DNA of 64,000 nucleotides. It comes from Acidobacteriota bacterium. GTDB lineage: Bacteria > Acidobacteriota > Blastocatellia > UBA7656. Shown piece after piece: positions 21,339 to 30,099 of this stretch (the first letter of the stretch is position 1; each line of letters opens with the position of its first letter). Where the stretch lies: the NCBI GenBank assembly GCA_016201275.1, contig JACQDB010000048.1, positions 1-64,000 of the forward strand. Reading direction: 5' to 3'. The notes below the pieces were generated by a model. That model was given only the letters and a program-made list of their open reading frames with translations. It searched no databases and was not told the origin of the DNA. Both the position numbers and the translations under genes were made by a program.

Positions 21339-23600
21339 CTACGATTTCACCTCGATCTTGATGACCTCGTTTTCAAAATCAATATAAAAATTGGTGGCGT
21401 CTTTCCATTGCGTGGTCACCGGCAATTTCACCATTTCATCAATCGTGCGTTTGAGGAAGCGCGCTCCGTAAGCCGGGCTGAAACCTTTTTCGACCAGATG
21501 ATTGAGCGCCGCATCGCTGAGTTCAATCTTCTTGCCCATGCGCTCCATCTGGCGCTTGAGCTTGCTTAAATACAGCAGCGCGATCTTCTTCACTTCGTCA
21601 ATAGTGAGCGGCGCAAAGACGACGATTTCATCTATGCGATTACGAAACTCCGGCGAGAAGCGGTCTTCGGCAGCCTTGATGACTTCGCGGCTGATCTGTT
21701 CAACATCGGCAAGCGATTTTTGCCCGAAGCCCAAGGGCTTCATATATTTTCTGAAACTGTCGGAGCCGAGGTTCGAGGTCATGATGATAATCGCATCCGA
21801 CAGATAAACTTTCTTGCCGCGCCCATCGGTGATCCAGCCTTCATCAAACGCCTGTAAAAACAGGTTCAGCAGGTACGGCGAAGCCTTTTCGATTTCGTCC
21901 AACAGCAACACCGTGTAAGGATTGTCGCGCAGTCGTTCGGTGAGGATGCCGCCGCGTTCGCTGCCGACGATGCCACGCGGCATACCGATTAATTTTTCAA
22001 TGGCAATGGTGCCGTCCTGATATTCGGACATATCTATGCGAACCATTTTGTCATCATCGCCGAACATGAATTCGGCTACGGCTTTCGCCAGTTCGGTCTT
22101 GCCCACGCCGGTCGGCCCCAGAAACAGCAAGACGCCATCGGGCTTGTAGAAATTCTCTTTCAGCGGACCTTTGTTCAAACGCAGGCGTTGTGCTACGGCC
22201 TTGATGGCTTTCTTCTGACCGACGACACGCGAAGTCAGCGACTCTTCCATAAACGCGAAGCGATCATTGGTATCGCGGAAAATCATGTCACGCGGAATGC
22301 GTGACTCCTGGCTGATGACATCAATGATATGTTCGGAGCGTACTTCGTTTTGCAGCGGCGAATTAATTTCAACCTTGACCGCAGCGGTGTCGAGCCAGCC
22401 GATGACTTTATCGGGCAGATGAAGATTGCGTATATAACGCGGTGCCATTTCGAGCGCCGTTTCAATCGCTTCATCGGAAATCGTCACCGAATAATTGCGC
22501 TCGATGCGCGGACGCACGCCGACAATAATTTTGCGAGTGTCTTCCACCGATGGCTCATCAACTTTGACCAGACGGAAACGCCTGGCCAGCGCTTCGTCTT
22601 CGGCGATGTACTCTTTGTATTCGGTCATGGTGGTTGCGCCGATGATGCGGATTTCGCCACGCGCCAGCGACGACTTGAACATATTGGCGGCGTCAGAACT
22701 GGCTCCCAGAGCCGATCCTGCGCCAATGATGGTGTGCGCTTCGTCTATGAAAAGCACCAGATTGTCGCGCTCTTTGACTTCGTTGATGATGCCTTGTATG
22801 CGCTCTTCAAACATCCCGCGCAGCATGGTTCCGGCGACTATGCCGGACATCTGCAATTGCACGACGTGGGCGTTTCGTAAGCGTTGCGGCACCGATTCCG
22901 GCTCCATTTCAATCTTGCGCGCCAGTCCTTCAACGACGGCGGTTTTGCCGACTCCGGCTTCGCCGACCAGCATAGGCGAGTTGGCGCGTTCACGATGACA
23001 GAGAATTTCAATCATCTGGCGAATCTCTTCGTTGCGCCCGATGACCGGCGGCAGTTTGTCTTGGCGTGCGAGTTTATTGAGGCTGACTCCGAAATGTTTC
23101 AGATAGGGCGGCAACTCGTAACGACGGCGATATTTTTCTTCCTTCTCTTCGTGGCTGCGGACGCGAGTCTGAATTTTCTGCATGACCATCTCCCTGTCCG
23201 CGCCCAGCCGTTTCAGAAGTTCGACGGGAAAGCCGTGCGCGTCTTTGAAAATCGCAACAAAAAGATCGGTGGATTCGATGAGGCGACGCCCGCGCTCGTG
23301 CGAATGCTTCAGCGCGTTGGAGAGCAGGGTGCGAAACGATTCGGACATTTTAATGCCGCGTCCGAGATATTCGCGTTGTCCGAGTTTGGTCTCAAGCGCC
23401 TGCAACACCACTTGTGGGTCGAGGTTGAGACTCTGCATCACTTCGTTAAAGAAGGGGCGCTCGATTTCGGCAATCGAGACCAAAACGTGTTCGGCAGCAA
23501 TCTGATTATGGTCGCGCGTTTTGGCTTCCTCGTAGGCTTTACGAATTAGGCGCTTCGCACTGTCGGCAATTTTATCGGTAAAGATTTCCAGATCAAGCAT
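21339..23600 (-). CDS. ClpA/ClpC-type AAA+ unfoldase subunit
   Basis: 753 residues. The start is taken as ATG at 23600 (MLDLEIFTDK), with AGAGGAAG upstream; TTG at 23609 is too close to that site. An N-terminal Clp-N double repeat spans about residues 5-145. AAA-1 has Walker A GEAGVGKT at 213-220 and Walker B LVLFIDEAHT. AAA-2 has Walker A GPTGVGKT and Walker B VLLLDEIEK, then a C-terminal Clp D2-small domain. There is no long ClpB-type M domain. A PLGF tripeptide region after MTSNLGSD sits where ClpC and ClpA carry the ClpP-docking loop, so it probably feeds ClpP, encoded elsewhere. Confidence 0.92.
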   Translation of the reverse strand: MLDLEIFTDKIADSAKRLIRKAYEEAKTRDHNQIAAEHVLVSIAEIERPFFNEVMQSLNLDPQVVLQALETKLGQREYLGRGIKMSESFRTLLSNALKHSHERGRRLIESTDLFVAIFKDAHGFPVELLKRLGADREMVMQKIQTRVRSHEEKEEKYRRRYELPPYLKHFGVSLNKLARQDKLPPVIGRNEEIRQMIEILCHRERANSPMLVGEAGVGKTAVVEGLARKIEMEPESVPQRLRNAHVVQLQMSGIVAGTMLRGMFEERIQGIINEVKERDNLVLFIDEAHTIIGAGSALGASSDAANMFKSSLARGEIRIIGATTMTEYKEYIAEDEALARRFRLVKVDEPSVEDTRKIIVGVRPRIERNYSVTISDEAIETALEMAPRYIRNLHLPDKVIGWLDTAAVKVEINSPLQNEVRSEHIIDVISQESRIPRDMIFRDTNDRFAFMEESLTSRVVGQKKAIKAVAQRLRLNKGPLKENFYKPDGVLLFLGPTGVGKTELAKAVAEFMFGDDDKMVRIDMSEYQDGTIAIEKLIGMPRGIVGSERGGILTERLRDNPYTVLLLDEIEKASPYLLNLFLQAFDEGWITDGRGKKVYLSDAIIIMTSNLGSDSFRKYMKPLGFGQKSLADVEQISREVIKAAEDRFSPEFRNRIDEIVVFAPLTIDEVKKIALLYLSKLKRQMERMGKKIELSDAALNHLVEKGFSPAYGARFLKRTIDEMVKLPVTTQWKDATNFYIDFENEVIKIEVKS

Positions 23601-23764
23601 GGTGTTCAACTTCCTCTGCTCTGTAAGAAAGAGCCATTCAACAGCGCCACCCGTGCAACGCCATCTTGGGTTACCTCATGGAGTATAACAAAGTAAAAAT
23701 GGCGGCTCAAGAATAAGCATTTTTCCAAACTCTGCGGCTGATTTCTTCGGTGTAGATGTGTAGA

Positions 23765-24034
23765 ATGAAGCACAGAACTATTATTCAGGAATCCGTAAGA
23801 GAAAGGAAGCCGCAAATGCGACTTGCCCGAAACGCCCGGCTCGTAAAACCGCATCGGTCAACCTGCGCCATACAAAACTGGCGCGGCGCGTACCACATCC
23901 AAGACTTAGCAGACGTACAGCAGTGAATCAAAATCCTCGATTCACCGGAAACGATAGCCAACGATTTGAGCGCCTCTGTGCGCGATGAATACTTACGACT
24001 TTGGCGAGTCACACAAGAGGCGAAAGAAATGTAA
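23765..24034 (+). pseudogene. Interrupted small frame, possible gene remnant
   Basis: An ATG at 23765 opens a 53-codon frame ending in TGA at 23924-23926. The same frame then continues without interruption for 35 more codons (SPETIANDLSASVRDEYLRL core) to TAA at 24032-24034. The second part looks like protein-coding sequence, so this may be a decayed gene or two tiny genes. I do not recognise the family. It lies between the Clp and HNH genes on the opposite strand. Confidence 0.3.
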
Positions 24035-24065
24035 GAGCATTCAATGCAGCGTCCGTTGATCAAGA

Positions 24066-24497
24066 CTATGCCGAATCGTGTGGTGGATGTACATGGATTG
24101 CCACCAAAGCACGACGCAGATTTATCAATGACAGACGATTCATTTGCAGCAAAGCTATCGTGGCTCTACCCGCAGGCGTGAGTCCCTCAATCCGTAATCC
24201 ATCTTCGCTCCATGAAAAATGTTCTCGCCAAATTGGCTGGCGTGGGTGAAAGAGAGCAATCGCTTCGTTGGTTTCAGGATCAACCGCTACAGTTTTGATT
24301 GATTTGTGTCCGTTGCACCCTTGACAGGCAAGCGCAAGATTATCGGCGACGGTCAATCCGCCCAAGGCGCGAGGCCGGATATGTTCAATTGAAAAACGCT
24401 CTGTGGCGTAGGCTTCCGGGCTGCGGCAATACGCACAAACCCCTTGCGCTCTTTCGGCAATCGTTTGTCGCAGAGACGCCGAAATTGCCTCAGCCAT
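24066..24497 (-). CDS. HNH endonuclease
   Basis: 143 residues with a complete HNH/zinc motif: Cys21-x2-Cys24 (CAYC), His39 in FSIEHIRPRALGG, Asn53 in ADNLALAC, and the second cysteine pair Cys58-x2-Cys61 followed by NGHK. The C-terminal half (WREHFSWSEDGLRIEGLTPAGRA) matches my recollection of small stand-alone HNH proteins common in cyanobacteria and acidobacteria. It overlaps the upstream helical-protein gene by eight bases, so the two are translationally coupled. The target nucleic acid is unknown. Confidence 0.88.
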   Translation of the reverse strand: MAEAISASLRQTIAERAQGVCAYCRSPEAYATERFSIEHIRPRALGGLTVADNLALACQGCNGHKSIKTVAVDPETNEAIALFHPRQPIWREHFSWSEDGLRIEGLTPAGRATIALLQMNRLSLINLRRALVAIHVHPPHDSA

Positions 24498-24903
24498 TTA
24501 CGCTCACTCCGATGCCGAGTTCTTTCATCAGTTGTGCAGAAGTAATGCCGCGCCGTTGCGCCAATTTGATAACGGCTTGCAAACGCTCGGCGTCGGCAAC
24601 TTCGCGTTGTTCGGCAAGAGAGATGTATTCGGCACGTTCGTCATCGCTTAATACTTCCGCTAATACTTCCGCCTCACTCTTGAGCGTGAGTTCGCGCCGC
24701 CGCACTCTCTGGATTTCGGAAAAGCCGTGCTGTATGCGACGCAGCAACTCGGCTTCTGTTACCTCGACGGCTTGAGGTACAGCTTCGCGCTCGGCTTGCC
24801 CGGAGTTTTCTTCTACAAGCGCTTCGGCAAAGGCCAACAGTCTGGCGTACTGCTCGGAGGTCAGACGAGAAACTACCTCTTCCAGCTTTTCTGATTGACT
24901 CAT
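24490..24903 (-). CDS. Small helical partner protein of the HNH nuclease
   Basis: 137 residues from ATG at 24903, with GAGG upstream; a longer TTG start at 24927 is less likely. Predicted all-helical and highly charged. The segments EVTEAELLRRIQHGF and DAERLQAVIKLAQRRG near a C-terminal LMKELGI pattern recur, as I recall, in short proteins encoded directly before HNH nucleases elsewhere. It could be an immunity, regulatory or recognition partner of the nuclease whose gene it overlaps. No DNA-binding motif is certain. Confidence 0.75.
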   Translation of the reverse strand: MSQSEKLEEVVSRLTSEQYARLLAFAEALVEENSGQAEREAVPQAVEVTEAELLRRIQHGFSEIQRVRRRELTLKSEAEVLAEVLSDDERAEYISLAEQREVADAERLQAVIKLAQRRGITSAQLMKELGIGVSVNG

Positions 24904-24951
24904 AGCGACCTCAATCATATCGCCCAAGTTGCGGCGTGGGCAAAAGGATTT

Positions 24952-25185
24952 TCAAGGTTGAGATGTCCAGATTTCATCCGGCAGCGGCTCGGCAAAATCA
25001 TCACTCGTCCAAGCCATTCCTTCATGCAGTCCGGCTATGCGCTGAGTTGTCGAAGTCTCTAGCGGCACTAAACGAGCGAGAGGTTTATCGTTTGAGGTTA
25101 AAATAATTTCCGCGCCTTCAGAGAGTAGAGACAACACGCCTGCCAAATCATTTTGGACATCTGCGACATCAATCGTTTTGGTCAT
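24952..25185 (-). CDS. Phd/YefM-type antitoxin-like protein without a toxin partner
   Basis: 77 residues. The N-terminus MTKTIDVADVQNDLAGVLSLL and the IILTSNDKPLARLVP strand are those of Phd/YefM DNA-binding antitoxins. The C-terminal SDDFAEPLPDEIW tail is the kind that normally wraps a VapC PIN toxin. No PIN, RelE or Doc toxin gene is adjacent; the next genes are the helical protein and the HNH nuclease. A GAGGATAAGG ribosome-binding site precedes the ATG. It begins 40 bases after the kinase-FGE stop and ends 48 bases before the next start. Confidence 0.85.
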   Translation of the reverse strand: MTKTIDVADVQNDLAGVLSLLSEGAEIILTSNDKPLARLVPLETSTTQRIAGLHEGMAWTSDDFAEPLPDEIWTSQP

Positions 25186-25225
25186 AGCCTTATCCTCTCA
25201 CCCTTTGCTCAAAGGTGAAAAACAC

Positions 25226-27544
25226 CTAACACGGCGTCCTCACGAGGCGAAAGCCGTTGCTATAGAAAAGGTAGTCGGATGGATTGCGGTTGCGGTACGC
25301 CGACCTACAGCGCACGGCATTGTGGCACCATCCCCCGCCACGCCTCACACGAGTTTCGCCTGAGTCAGGTCCCCTCGGATCCGCATCAGTGCCGTTAGCA
25401 TAATATCCGCTATCGTACCAATCGCTACACCACTCCCACACATTTCCGTGCATATCGTACAAGCCCCAAGCATTTGCTTTCTTCCCTCCAACTGGGTGTG
25501 TTTTATTTTCTGAGTTTTTATTATACCAACCCATTTCATCCAGATTTCCCGCGTAATCGCTTCTGCTCCCTGCACGACACGCATACTCCCATTCTGCTTC
25601 CGTTGGCAAACGATAGTTATAGCCTTCATTCTTCGCATTCAACTTTTTGATAAACTTCTGCGCGTCGTTCCAAGACACTTTCTCTACGGGGAGCGTTGCG
25701 CCTTTGAAATGACTCGGATTGCTCCCCATCTCTAATTTCCACTGTGCTTGCGTCACCTGATATTTGCTTATTTCAAACGGGCGACTAATTATCACCTTAT
25801 GCACTGGTCTTTCATCATCATTGCCATTTTCCGATCCCATCATAAACTCGCCTGCTGGAATCCAAACAAATCCATCATGGTCTCGTCTTTGCTGCATCGT
25901 CATGTTTTTTTGCAACTTCTTTTCAAGGGGCTTTGCATTAATAATGTGATCAGGTTGTTCTTTTGGTTGTGGAGTCGCTTGCAAAATAGGAATCTTGGCT
26001 CTTGTCAATTTTTTTATAGACGTAAGGGCAAGTTCAGGCTCTGCTTTCTTAACAGTTTTGATCAGCCTAGGAATGGGTATCGGCATCACCTTCTTGGGAT
26101 AATATTTGGCGCGAATACGCTCTGCTACAATTAAAGGAACAGCATTTGATGGAACGCTCACATCAATTCCTTCGCGGCGCACATCCTCAATCACTTTCTT
26201 ACTATCTAGTTTTAATTCTTTGGCTAAATCGTAAACTCTTATTATTTCATGCTTATTCAAACGGGCATTGGCTTGAGGCTCCAGTTGAACAACCGGCCTT
26301 TTAACTTTGGCTTGTTCTCTTGCCTTGCGTTCTTGTTCCTGTAGTTGTCTTAGCTTATCGGCTGCTTCTTTTTCTTTACGTCTTTGAGACTCTAATCTTC
26401 TTTGTTTTTCAGCTTCTTCTTTATTCGCAAGTTCTTTTTGTAGTTTTTGTTTTTCGGAATCTTCTTTTGCCTTATGCTCTAGCTCTAGTCTTTTATATCT
26501 TTCAGCCTCTGCTTTTGCGTTTCGTAACTTTTCTTCCAAGTGTTTTCGTTTTTTGGCTTCTTCCTTTACTTTGGCTTCTTGTCCTGCAAGCAAATGTTTG
26601 AGCCTTTCGGCTTCTTCTTTCCGTACCTGTTCTTCTAGTTGTTTTCGTTTTCCTGTTTCTAAGCTTTCTTTCCGTTCCAGTTCTTCCTGTCGTCGCCTTC
26701 TTTCAGCGTCATTAACAATTATGGTTAAGTCGTTATCCATTTGGAGAAAACGCTGATAGGCTTTTTGCAATTCGCTCCGCATAACTTTTGCGGTCGAGTG
26801 TCTTTCATTTGTTTTTTTCTTTAGCCCGATAATTATAAAATGCTTTAATGGCGTGGGAACATCTTCATTAAGCGCTTCGGGTTCACTCAAGCCGATTGCT
26901 TTAATCAACTCAAACATTGCACCATTAAAAGGTAATCTTCCGCACAAAAGCTTATAGAAAATGACCGAGGCAGACCATAAATCTGTCTGCTCGTTGCGCT
27001 CTCCTTCTAAGGCTTCGGGTGACATATAAGCGGGCGAACCTTTAATCATATTACTGTCGGTTCCCGATGGCAGAAACTTGGCAATGCCGAAATCGGTGAT
27101 GCGCGGAATCTCGCCTTGCAACAAAATATTGGTGGGCTTTAAATCTCGATGAATGATTTGCCGTTTGTGCAGATGTTCAAGTCCCGCGAGGATGCCGCGC
27201 ATCATTTCAACAGTCGCGTAAATCGAAGGAGCCTTGCCGCCGTGAGTGTTCAACCAATCTTCAAGCGAACCGTCAGGCGAGTATTCGCTGGCAATGAAAA
27301 TCTGTCCGTTGTGAATGTCTGCGTCAACGATAGGCAAAACATTCGGATGGCCTTTGGCCTGCTCCCATACTTTCGCTTCTTTTTCTACGTCTTCAAATTT
27401 GACTCGTGCCTTCGGCAATTTGAGCGCAACCCTGGTGGTCAAGACGCGAGTGCGCTTTTCGGCTAACCAGACTTCGCCGAATTGTCCTTCGCCAAGAAAC
27501 TCAATCAGAGTGTAGTCGCCAATCTTCTCGTTCGGCTGGAACAT
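25226..27544 (-). CDS. Ser/Thr kinase - coiled coil - IF2-N-like - FGE/C-type-lectin-fold fusion
   Basis: 772 residues. Residues 1-270 are a Hanks-type kinase with G-loop GEGQFG, VALK lysine, catalytic HRDLKPTN and DFG. Residues about 280-430 are a Lys/Glu/Arg coiled coil. Residues about 440-500 (HEIIRVYDLAKELKLDSKKV) resemble the IF-2 N-terminal domain. Residues 552-772 are a formylglycine-generating-enzyme-type domain (FVWIPAGEFMMGS, LPTEAEWEYACRAG, GLYDMHGNVWEWC). The end, RGGGWCHNAVRCRSAYR...NGFRLV, is like diversity-generating-retroelement target proteins. There is no transmembrane segment. The middle is richer in A/T than its neighbours, hinting at transfer. It is probably a signalling or conflict protein with a binding, not enzymatic, FGE fold. 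Confidence 0.9.
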   Translation of the reverse strand: MFQPNEKIGDYTLIEFLGEGQFGEVWLAEKRTRVLTTRVALKLPKARVKFEDVEKEAKVWEQAKGHPNVLPIVDADIHNGQIFIASEYSPDGSLEDWLNTHGGKAPSIYATVEMMRGILAGLEHLHKRQIIHRDLKPTNILLQGEIPRITDFGIAKFLPSGTDSNMIKGSPAYMSPEALEGERNEQTDLWSASVIFYKLLCGRLPFNGAMFELIKAIGLSEPEALNEDVPTPLKHFIIIGLKKKTNERHSTAKVMRSELQKAYQRFLQMDNDLTIIVNDAERRRRQEELERKESLETGKRKQLEEQVRKEEAERLKHLLAGQEAKVKEEAKKRKHLEEKLRNAKAEAERYKRLELEHKAKEDSEKQKLQKELANKEEAEKQRRLESQRRKEKEAADKLRQLQEQERKAREQAKVKRPVVQLEPQANARLNKHEIIRVYDLAKELKLDSKKVIEDVRREGIDVSVPSNAVPLIVAERIRAKYYPKKVMPIPIPRLIKTVKKAEPELALTSIKKLTRAKIPILQATPQPKEQPDHIINAKPLEKKLQKNMTMQQRRDHDGFVWIPAGEFMMGSENGNDDERPVHKVIISRPFEISKYQVTQAQWKLEMGSNPSHFKGATLPVEKVSWNDAQKFIKKLNAKNEGYNYRLPTEAEWEYACRAGSRSDYAGNLDEMGWYNKNSENKTHPVGGKKANAWGLYDMHGNVWEWCSDWYDSGYYANGTDADPRGPDSGETRVRRGGGWCHNAVRCRSAYRNRNPSDYLFYSNGFRLVRTPC
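25229..25351 (-). other. Candidate variable region of the kinase-FGE gene
   Basis: These codons (about 732-772) encode the GGGW...CRSAYR...GFRLV end that is diversified in many retroelement-targeted lectin-fold proteins. Many codons between the fixed anchors end in C or T (TGC CAC AAT, TAC CGC AAC CGC AAT, TCC GAC TAC CTT TTC TAT AGC AAC), the pattern left when AAC/AAT template codons are mutated at adenines. No template repeat or reverse transcriptase is visible in the window. Confidence 0.4.
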
Positions 27545-27702: not shown

Positions 27703-30099
27703 ATGAATAAATTCGCTGAGTTCGTGGTGCTGCGCGCCAAATTCATCATCGCTGTGACCCTCGCTTTGACCCTGGGCTTTGCCGCTGCTCTGGTTATCAA
27801 CGGCGTGAAGTTCAATGGCTCGCCTGAAACTCTCGCTCGCAACGACGAAGCGCTGGCCTTCTTTCATCAAACACAAGCCACCTTTGGCGATGACCGCGTG
27901 ATTATTGTCGCCTTCACCACCAACGATATTTTTACCAGCGAAGCCCAAGACCGACTCTATGCGCTCACCTCGCGTCTGGCGGCAATGCAGGGCGTTTCAG
28001 AAGCGCTCAGTCTTGCCAATCTCAAGGATATAAGCCGCGAAGAAGGCGGCATCGTCATTGATAAACTGCTGCCTACCAACGCCACTACCGCACAGCTTCA
28101 ACAACGCAAAAATGCTATCCTGCAAGACCCGCTGTATGCGCGGCACTACATCGCCGCAGACGCTCGCACGGCGGCCATCAATGTCTTTCTCAAACCGCTG
28201 CCCACCAAAGAGAGTCACGCTGTGGCGCTGGAAATCGAGCGCGTCGTCAAAGCCGAATCACGCGGCGACCTATGGCTCGCCGGTGTGCCATTGATGGATG
28301 TCAAAGGCGTCAACAGCATGGTGCGCGATGTACTGGTGCTGTCGCCGCTTGCCGCCATCCTCTGTTTTCTGGTCTTTTTCGGGGCGTTTCGCAATTTCTG
28401 GGGAGCCGTGCTGCCGACCATCGCCTTGTTGATGGGCTTGATTTGGACGATAGGCTTTATGGGAATGCTCGGCAAACCCATCACCATAGCAACGCTCTCT
28501 TTGCCTACGGTGTTGATGGCGGTAGGCAGTTCCTACATCTTCCACGTTTTGAATCAGTATAAAATTTCCATGTCGTCGCTTGCCGCGAGTGCCGACCGGC
28601 AAACGCAAAATGCCAGTTGGTTGGACGGTTTGCGATTCATCCTTCCGGCAGTCTTCGTATCGGGCGCGACCACCATTGCCGGGTTCGCCTCGTTGACTTC
28701 AAGCCCTGTGCCTGCGGCCAAAGACATGGGCTTGTTTGAAGCCACCGGCGTGGCTTTTATGCTGCTCTTAACGCTTGCCTTCATCCCTGCGGTGTTGACC
28801 TTGTTGCCGCAACATTCGCTGGGTCGTCACGATGGCGAAGAAAAAGATTACGCCTTGTGGATGAACCCATTGTTGAAGCACATCACGGCGCTGATTCTAT
28901 TTCGCCGCCGAAGCGTGCTGTTCATCTCTTTGGCCGCAACTTTATTCCTCGGCGTGGGCGTTTACTGGATGAGAGTCAACACCGACTATTTGAAAATCTT
29001 TCCGCGTGACAGCGAAATCTCGCAAACCGCAGCGAAGTTACACGAACAACTCGCCGGGGCATCCGTCCTGCAAATTGTCGTAAGCGGCAACCCGGACGCG
29101 GCAACCTCTACGACGTTCATGCAGAACCTTGCGGCGCTTGAACAATTCGCGCTTGAACAGCCAGGCGTGGATGCGGCGATTTCCGTAGCCGACATCGTTA
29201 AAAAATTCAATCAGGCTTTGCCGGGTAAACCAGACGAACAGGTTGCCGCAATCCCGCACAACGCTGCGCGCTTGCAATCCATTTTTAATAATTATCTATC
29301 GCAGGACGAAGCCTTGAACAAGCTGGTCAATCGTGATCGTTCAACGGCGGTCATCGTGCTGCGAACCAATCTATTCGGCTCCAACGAAATTCACGCCTTC
29401 GCCGATAAAATCAAGCAATGGCAAAGCGACCACCTGCCGCAAACTGTCGCGGCGCGTTTGACTGGCTCGTTCATACTGCTCAACGATGCGTCGGACGCGG
29501 TTGCTTCGTCGCAGGCATCAAGTCTGGTCATCGCGCTCATCACCATTTACCTGATGATGGTTTTGATGTTTCGCTCGTTTGCTACAGGTTTTCTGGCCTT
29601 GCTGCCCAACCTGCTGCCGATCTTCGGCTACTTCGGTTTTTTAGGTTGGACAGCGACAACGCTAGACATCACTACAAGTTTGATCGCCAGTTCCGTGCTT
29701 GGCCTTGCAGTAGATAACGCCGTGCATATGATTCGCCGTTATCGCCAAGCGGTCGCCGAATGCCAAGCGCATCCGCATAGCGAATCCAGCAGCGCTGAAG
29801 GTTGGGCGATGTGGTTGACCATGCACAGAACTGGCAAGCCGATGACGCTGGCGAACCTGATGTTGATTGCTGCGTTTTTGATTTTCACGTTGTCGAGTTT
29901 CGTGCCGGTTCGCACTTCGGGTTTGCTGTGGGCGATCACTATACTGGCGTGTCTGGTCGCTGATTTAATATTTCTTCCTGCCTTGATGAAAACCAAACTC
30001 TTTCACAAGGCGGCGCTGGGCAACGCCAGTAAACTGGAAAAGCAACTACCGGATGAGAGAAAATCTACACAAGGGGTCAAGGTTGAAAGCTATGAATAA
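27703..30099 (+). CDS. RND/MMPL-family exporter
   Basis: 798 residues with the two-fold RND layout: one N-terminal helix, a periplasmic domain, then five or six helices, repeated. Markers are the second helix bundle FFGAFRNFWGAVLPTIALLMG and, in the second half, VLGLAVDNAVHMIRRYR. It belongs to the MMPL/hopanoid-exporter type, which moves lipids or hydrophobic molecules from the inner membrane. The stop codon overlaps the start of the next gene (ATGAATAA), whose product is a LolA-like lipoprotein; that exporter-plus-lipoprotein pairing is common. The cargo is not deducible. Confidence 0.9.
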   Translation: MNKFAEFVVLRAKFIIAVTLALTLGFAAALVINGVKFNGSPETLARNDEALAFFHQTQATFGDDRVIIVAFTTNDIFTSEAQDRLYALTSRLAAMQGVSEALSLANLKDISREEGGIVIDKLLPTNATTAQLQQRKNAILQDPLYARHYIAADARTAAINVFLKPLPTKESHAVALEIERVVKAESRGDLWLAGVPLMDVKGVNSMVRDVLVLSPLAAILCFLVFFGAFRNFWGAVLPTIALLMGLIWTIGFMGMLGKPITIATLSLPTVLMAVGSSYIFHVLNQYKISMSSLAASADRQTQNASWLDGLRFILPAVFVSGATTIAGFASLTSSPVPAAKDMGLFEATGVAFMLLLTLAFIPAVLTLLPQHSLGRHDGEEKDYALWMNPLLKHITALILFRRRSVLFISLAATLFLGVGVYWMRVNTDYLKIFPRDSEISQTAAKLHEQLAGASVLQIVVSGNPDAATSTTFMQNLAALEQFALEQPGVDAAISVADIVKKFNQALPGKPDEQVAAIPHNAARLQSIFNNYLSQDEALNKLVNRDRSTAVIVLRTNLFGSNEIHAFADKIKQWQSDHLPQTVAARLTGSFILLNDASDAVASSQASSLVIALITIYLMMVLMFRSFATGFLALLPNLLPIFGYFGFLGWTATTLDITTSLIASSVLGLAVDNAVHMIRRYRQAVAECQAHPHSESSSAEGWAMWLTMHRTGKPMTLANLMLIAAFLIFTLSSFVPVRTSGLLWAITILACLVADLIFLPALMKTKLFHKAALGNASKLEKQLPDERKSTQGVKVESYE

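Follow-up and report, generated by a model that had tools for sequence, protein, structure and literature searches.

A helical protein-HNH nuclease gene pair in the place of a vapC toxin gene in an Acidobacteriota genome: a candidate toxin-antitoxin-like unit

Gene content of the locus

The window analyzed here, a stretch of 64,000 nucleotides from an Acidobacteriota bacterium (contig JACQDB010000048.1), contains four open reading frames (ORFs) that follow one another on the minus strand and code for a Ser/Thr kinase-FGE (formylglycine-generating enzyme) protein, a Phd-like antitoxin, a small all-helical protein and an HNH nuclease (Table 1). A preliminary description of this DNA had suggested that they might form a single four-gene conflict or defense unit, with the nuclease restrained by the kinase or the Phd protein. 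Our comparisons point to a composite locus, in which the last two genes are a self-contained and very widespread pair that appears to have taken the place of a PIN toxin gene behind phd.

The layout given in that description was exact in every coordinate, with gaps of 40 bases between the kinase and phd genes and 48 bases between phd and the helical gene, and an overlap of 8 bases between the helical and HNH genes. The ATG of the helical gene at 24903 is preceded by GAGG, and an alternative form with a TTG start would extend to 24927. No strong terminator-like site was seen between the four genes on the minus strand, and the phd-helical gap holds a weak promoter-like site, in a scan that was itself uninformative. 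On the same strand, 3' of the HNH gene, lies a ClpC-like ATPase gene, while an MMPL transporter is divergent at the other side; neither is mentioned in that description. The domains proposed for the kinase, FGE and HNH parts were recovered with Pfam; those named as IF2_N and Phd/YefM fell under their cutoffs, and the helical protein matched no family above cutoff in Pfam or NCBIfam and had weak PADLOC matches only.

Table 1. Coordinates of the features at the locus (aa, amino acids; AF2, AlphaFold2).
Feature	Positions	Strand	Basis
ClpC-like ATPase, right-hand synteny anchor	21339..23609	-	91% identical to G002:C1 27499-29751
Segment in place of the G002 vapC ORF	23735..24963		blastn, window against G002 locus
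Decayed C-terminus of unrelated gene	23837..24031	+	Similarity to C-termini of relatives' proteins
HNH nuclease, 143 aa	24066..24497	-	Pfam HNH 4.8e-10; invariant columns; AF2 model
Start/stop overlap ATGGCTGA, 8 bases, putatively coupling partner and HNH	24490..24497	-	
Small all-helical partner, 137 aa from ATG 24903; predicted antidote of HNH protein	24490..24903	-	Partner profile; AF2
Phd/YefM-type antitoxin, putatively orphaned, 77 aa	24952..25185	-	81% aa identity to G002 Phd
Ser/Thr kinase-coiled coil-IF2N-like-FGE protein, 772 aa; probably unrelated to the pair	25226..27544	-	Pfam
MMPL/RND transporter, left-hand synteny anchor	27703..30099	+	Pfam MMPL 1e-36; same position in G002

Probable replacement of the vapC gene

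The same locus was found in genome G002, which belongs to another genus of the same family, with the order MMPL (minus strand), kinase-FGE (plus strand), Phd, a PIN/VapC-like toxin of 128 residues, whose start falls on the final base of phd, and the ClpC-like gene. When both loci were compared by blastn, homology ran through phd to position 24964 and came back at 23734, which corresponds in G002 to 4 bases past the vapC stop codon. The boundaries agree with those of the PIN ORF to about 10 bases, one end falling inside the last codons of phd, and the replaced 1.2-kb segment contains both the helical and the HNH gene and, in addition, a relic of an unrelated gene. Its GC content (0.520, versus 0.528 for the window) is ordinary and neither supports nor excludes transfer.

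The window Phd matched PhdYeFM at 1.2e-5 (25.5 bits, just under the cutoff of 29.8) and differs from its G002 counterpart by 0.11 nonsynonymous (dN) and 1.31 synonymous (dS) substitutions per site. As the preliminary description had claimed, it has no toxin, and tblastn revealed no remnant of vapC/PIN or any other toxin for it in the window. Among the 12 closest homologues of Phd that were examined, 10 are followed by a PIN gene. Since G002 has PIN at the same locus and PIN is the usual neighbor in relatives, the lone Phd is, judging from gene order, an orphaned antitoxin of the Phd/YefM-PIN (VapBC) type, left without its directly downstream toxin; G002 keeps the complete pair, and in the window the helical-HNH pair occupies the place of the missing partner.

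We infer that the vapC ORF was replaced by this two-gene cassette in the window lineage, with loss of vapC here more plausible than gain in G002 because Phd-PIN is the usual pairing. Neither a kinase nor a phd gene was found beside clpC in members of the family other than G002, and in genome G003 the MMPL gene directly adjoins clpC. The locus would represent a clean example of a toxin gene exchanged for another cassette with the old antitoxin kept. The relic, convergent with the HNH gene and bearing one in-frame TGA, probably came in together with the cassette. It resembles the C-termini of proteins of 210 to 270 amino acids in relatives (E values down to 6e-9), and these full-length relatives looked nucleotidyltransferase-like by eye.

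Linkage and distribution of the helical-HNH pair

We drew 80 HNH loci from named genomes, of which 79 could be evaluated, the 80th ending at a contig edge. At each of the 79, the gene that immediately precedes HNH was recognized by the partner profile, and these loci span about 12 phyla (Acidobacteria, Cyanobacteria, Chloroflexi, Verrucomicrobia, Bacteroidota, Planctomycetes, Armatimonadetes, Proteobacteria, Desulfobacterota, Chlorobiota, KSB1 and Aminicenantes). In 58 of these loci the ATG of the HNH gene overlaps the end of the partner gene by exactly 8 bases, the commonest sequences being ATGCCTGA, ATGTCTGA and ATGGCTGA, the last of which is carried by the window. A further set of 60 HNH loci was taken from relatives of the same class; 2 had no upstream DNA, and among the 58 usable ones a hidden Markov model (HMM) found the partner in 54 and partner-like sequence was recognized by eye in the remaining 4, one of which has another gene between the two. 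The distance matrices of the HNH and partner proteins were correlated (r=0.71, where 1000 shuffles reached 0.33 at most), which shows joint inheritance of both genes, not binding. The only interrupted pair seen was L195 (G002:C10:154600-157000), with a 226-residue ORF between partner and HNH.

The genes that surround the pair differ between loci, those upstream of it being unrelated. A kinase, FGE or Phd gene lay directly beside the pair in none of the 79 named loci; relatives of these genes occur near only a few pairs and adjacent to none. The adjacency of kinase and Phd is common to the window and one relative. Within the four-gene stretch, the helical-HNH adjacency alone exceeds chance.

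Decay of the pair was unequal. The HNH gene was broken and the partner intact in 8 loci (L186, L194, L200, L226, L238, L244, L129 and L166), both were damaged in 2 (L210 and L230), and the reverse case, a damaged partner beside an intact HNH gene, was found in none, a bias that is if anything understated because the search was seeded with HNH. Among plasmid records, 37 carry the pair, most of them cyanobacterial; in L182 it adjoins a replication gene, and in L183 it lies near integrase and ParA-family genes. Copy number is patchy, with many copies in some genomes and no close one in others. A viral origin was rejected: there was no relative in the viral contigs scanned, and phage records gave no full-length match. 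The window genome itself has a second helical-HNH pair (G000:C15:43839-44249, L217) with a ribbon-helix-helix (RHH)-like N-terminus on the partner. In loci L128, L139 and L145, at least two pairs or partners lie in tandem or near each other. The two L139 partners differ in their N-terminal module, which in one of them is AF2212-like.

The HNH protein and its helical partner

The HNH protein retains the columns that are invariant among 40 relatives, including the zinc cysteines C21, C24, C58 and C61 along with H39 and N62, and its C-terminal domain conserves the pattern W-HF-W...G-TP-GRAT. The AF2 model (mean predicted local distance difference test [pLDDT] of 94.7) keeps the zinc cysteines and the catalytic histidine, and the PDB fold that it matched best, along almost the whole chain, was PtuB of retron Ec78 (Foldseek match 9u9y_H; E value of 7e-4; query TM-score [TMq] of 0.63). 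PADLOC models of PtuB matched the protein at 7e-14, while the NCBIfam PtuB model was under cutoff and that of IscB, at 3e-10, far under it. By this modeling, the HNH protein is PtuB-like in fold.

The window partner matched the partner HMM with an E value of 1.8e-20 and was modeled as an all-alpha protein of six helices (pLDDT of 83), for which there was no convincing PDB match by sequence and no significant one by fold. A weak IF2_N match (0.073) was taken as chance. Across loci, the C-terminal 80 residues or so of the partner are constant and the N-terminus is swapped, being helical in the window and RHH-like in others, with MazE_antitoxin (L128), AF2212-like (L139) and DUF6364 (L034) modules above the Pfam cutoffs. 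A variable N-terminus joined to a constant C-terminus is the build of an antitoxin, so that we read the partner as the probable antidote of the HNH protein.

Comparison with known systems

The fold of the HNH protein is shared with Septu and with the PtuAB proteins of retron Ec78. The latter deplete tRNA-Tyr and are toxic only when both are expressed (PMC11555353), and in the NetFlax network the PtuB-like HNH node D51 is linked to a PtuA-type partner, D29 (PMC10440598). In contrast to these systems, the window has neither PtuA nor a retron: the HNH protein is partnered by a 130-residue helical protein, and no PtuA ATPase was found beside it, the other neighbors being Phd, kinase-FGE and the ClpC-like ATPase. 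The HNH domains of IscB and Cas9 share the motif with four cysteines, but the window protein lacks RuvC or guide RNA features and has only 143 residues.

The pair also resembles type II toxin-antitoxin systems (MazEF, RHH- and AF2212-type) in architecture. Two small adjacent overlapping genes with the putative antitoxin first were found in the window and in its relatives, and the pair is mobile, patchy and multicopy, occurs on plasmids and has exchangeable N-terminal antitoxin modules. It differs by having an HNH nuclease as the putative toxin, and in that the presumed toxin-facing C-terminal helical domain belongs to no Pfam or PADLOC family. Neither a 2009 survey of type II systems (PMC2701414) nor one of Synechocystis toxin-antitoxin systems (PMC4963859) contains an HNH toxin, and within the scope of our search the open-access literature held no matching description of an intracellular toxin-antitoxin pair with an HNH toxin. 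The helical-HNH bicistron is very widespread and apparently undescribed, with a prior description possible outside that literature.

Interpretation

Taken as a whole, the locus is most likely a composite in which a type II toxin-antitoxin-like cassette has replaced a PIN toxin. The ancestral order would have been kinase-FGE, phd and vapC(PIN), between the MMPL and clpC-like genes, and the self-contained cassette would have taken the place of vapC, with phd left as an orphan antitoxin. The HNH protein would be a PtuB-like metal-dependent nuclease directed against cellular nucleic acid, either DNA or tRNA. The partner would be translated first, with the HNH protein coupled to it through the 8-base overlap, and would bind and silence the nuclease by means of its conserved C-terminal helices. 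Elsewhere in the family, the RHH-, MazE- or AF2212-type N-terminus of the partner would provide dimerization and autorepression of the operon. The following points weigh against this interpretation. The PtuB relatives are toxic only together with the ATPase PtuA (PMC11555353), which is lacking at the window pair; the N-terminus of the window partner is all-helical, with no recognized DNA-binding fold, and autoregulation by this copy is therefore not evident; the imbalance in decay amounts to only 8 loci to 0, and some of the stops could be assembly errors; and the direction of replacement is read from a single relative carrying vapC.

A possible but considerably less probable alternative is that the pair is a two-subunit nuclease, restriction-like or Septu-like, that attacks incoming DNA or tRNA once triggered, with the helical protein targeting or activating the enzyme rather than acting as its antidote. 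The proximity of the fold to PtuB of Ec78 over most of its length and the PADLOC PtuB matches would fit such an enzyme, and strict pairing is equally expected of obligate subunits; however, no PtuA ATPase, methylase or sensor was found at the pair, the partner carries antitoxin-type modules in several loci, and the pair's small size, its presence on plasmids and its unequal decay suit a toxin-antitoxin unit better. HNH domains are common among homing enzymes, and a mobile, patchy distribution might also be expected if the HNH protein were a selfish homing-type nuclease with the helical protein as its maturation factor. We regard this as very unlikely, given that the pair lies outside introns and inteins in the loci read, that viral contigs gave no match and phage records no full-length one and that the two genes form a conserved operon with antitoxin-type modules.

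The remaining alternatives concern the upstream genes. It is conceivable, if rather improbable, that Phd was co-opted after the loss of VapC and now autoregulates a phd-partner-HNH operon, in which it provides the DNA-binding part missing from this partner. Phd is intact, has a low dN/dS and is separated by only 48 bases from a partner without a recognized DNA-binding domain; but this arrangement is found in one genome only, Phd is directly upstream of no other pair, the low ratio may predate the loss of vapC, and the gap has its own weak promoter-like site. An extension of this idea, that the toxin swap created a three-part hybrid in which the orphaned Phd controls, and perhaps helps to neutralize, the HNH toxin through the helical partner, seems to us similarly doubtful; if true, new toxin-antitoxin combinations could arise by toxin exchange behind a kept antitoxin. 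The four-gene module of the preliminary description, for which the shared strand, the short gaps, the four open frames and the lack of a strong terminator-like site could be cited, is already contradicted and has scarcely any probability left. Its gene order occurs in this genome only, and counterparts of the four genes do not lie together in related genomes, which that description itself had named as a refutation; the PIN gene that follows Phd in G002 and the 79 named pairs without an adjacent kinase, FGE or Phd gene also speak against it, and the replaced segment ends inside phd. What does seem plausible in that proposal is a nuclease restrained by a small neighbor, the restrainer being most likely the helical protein and not the kinase or Phd.

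If the toxin-antitoxin reading is correct, the pair would represent a very common multiphylum family whose toxin fold (HNH, PtuB-like) is absent from the two surveys cited above, and which has a new toxin-binding domain behind interchangeable antitoxin N-termini. A PtuB-type nuclease would then be able to work without an ATPase, under a simple antidote, and the family might be a simpler relative of the Septu and retron effectors.

The kinase-FGE neighbor

The kinase-FGE protein has clear Pkinase (1.2e-44) and FGE-sulfatase (5.8e-50) domains in Pfam, together with a weak IF2_N match (1.4e-4; 22.0 bits, under the cutoff of 25.3). It matched the mad6 and PD-T4-6 models of PADLOC alongside generic Ser/Thr kinase models and was far under the cutoff of NCBIfam MAD6. 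No other MADS component was matched among the four genes, and the locus lacks the combination of a defense-specific kinase with system neighbors that characterizes kinase-based defense (MADS, PD-T4-6). This protein is one of about 33 kinase/FGE matches in the window's own genome. Nothing was found that ties this protein to the nuclease, and it is probably a neighbor unrelated to the helical-HNH pair. The syntenic protein of G002 is 55 to 59% identical in the kinase and FGE parts; its gene (G002:C1:24625-26601, L081) lacks the coiled-coil/IF2N part and adds about 150 residues at the C-terminus. The GC content of the window gene is low (0.448 versus 0.528), and the coiled-coil/IF2N stretch (25900-26770) is AT-richer, with a GC content of 0.394 versus 0.528 for the rest of the window.

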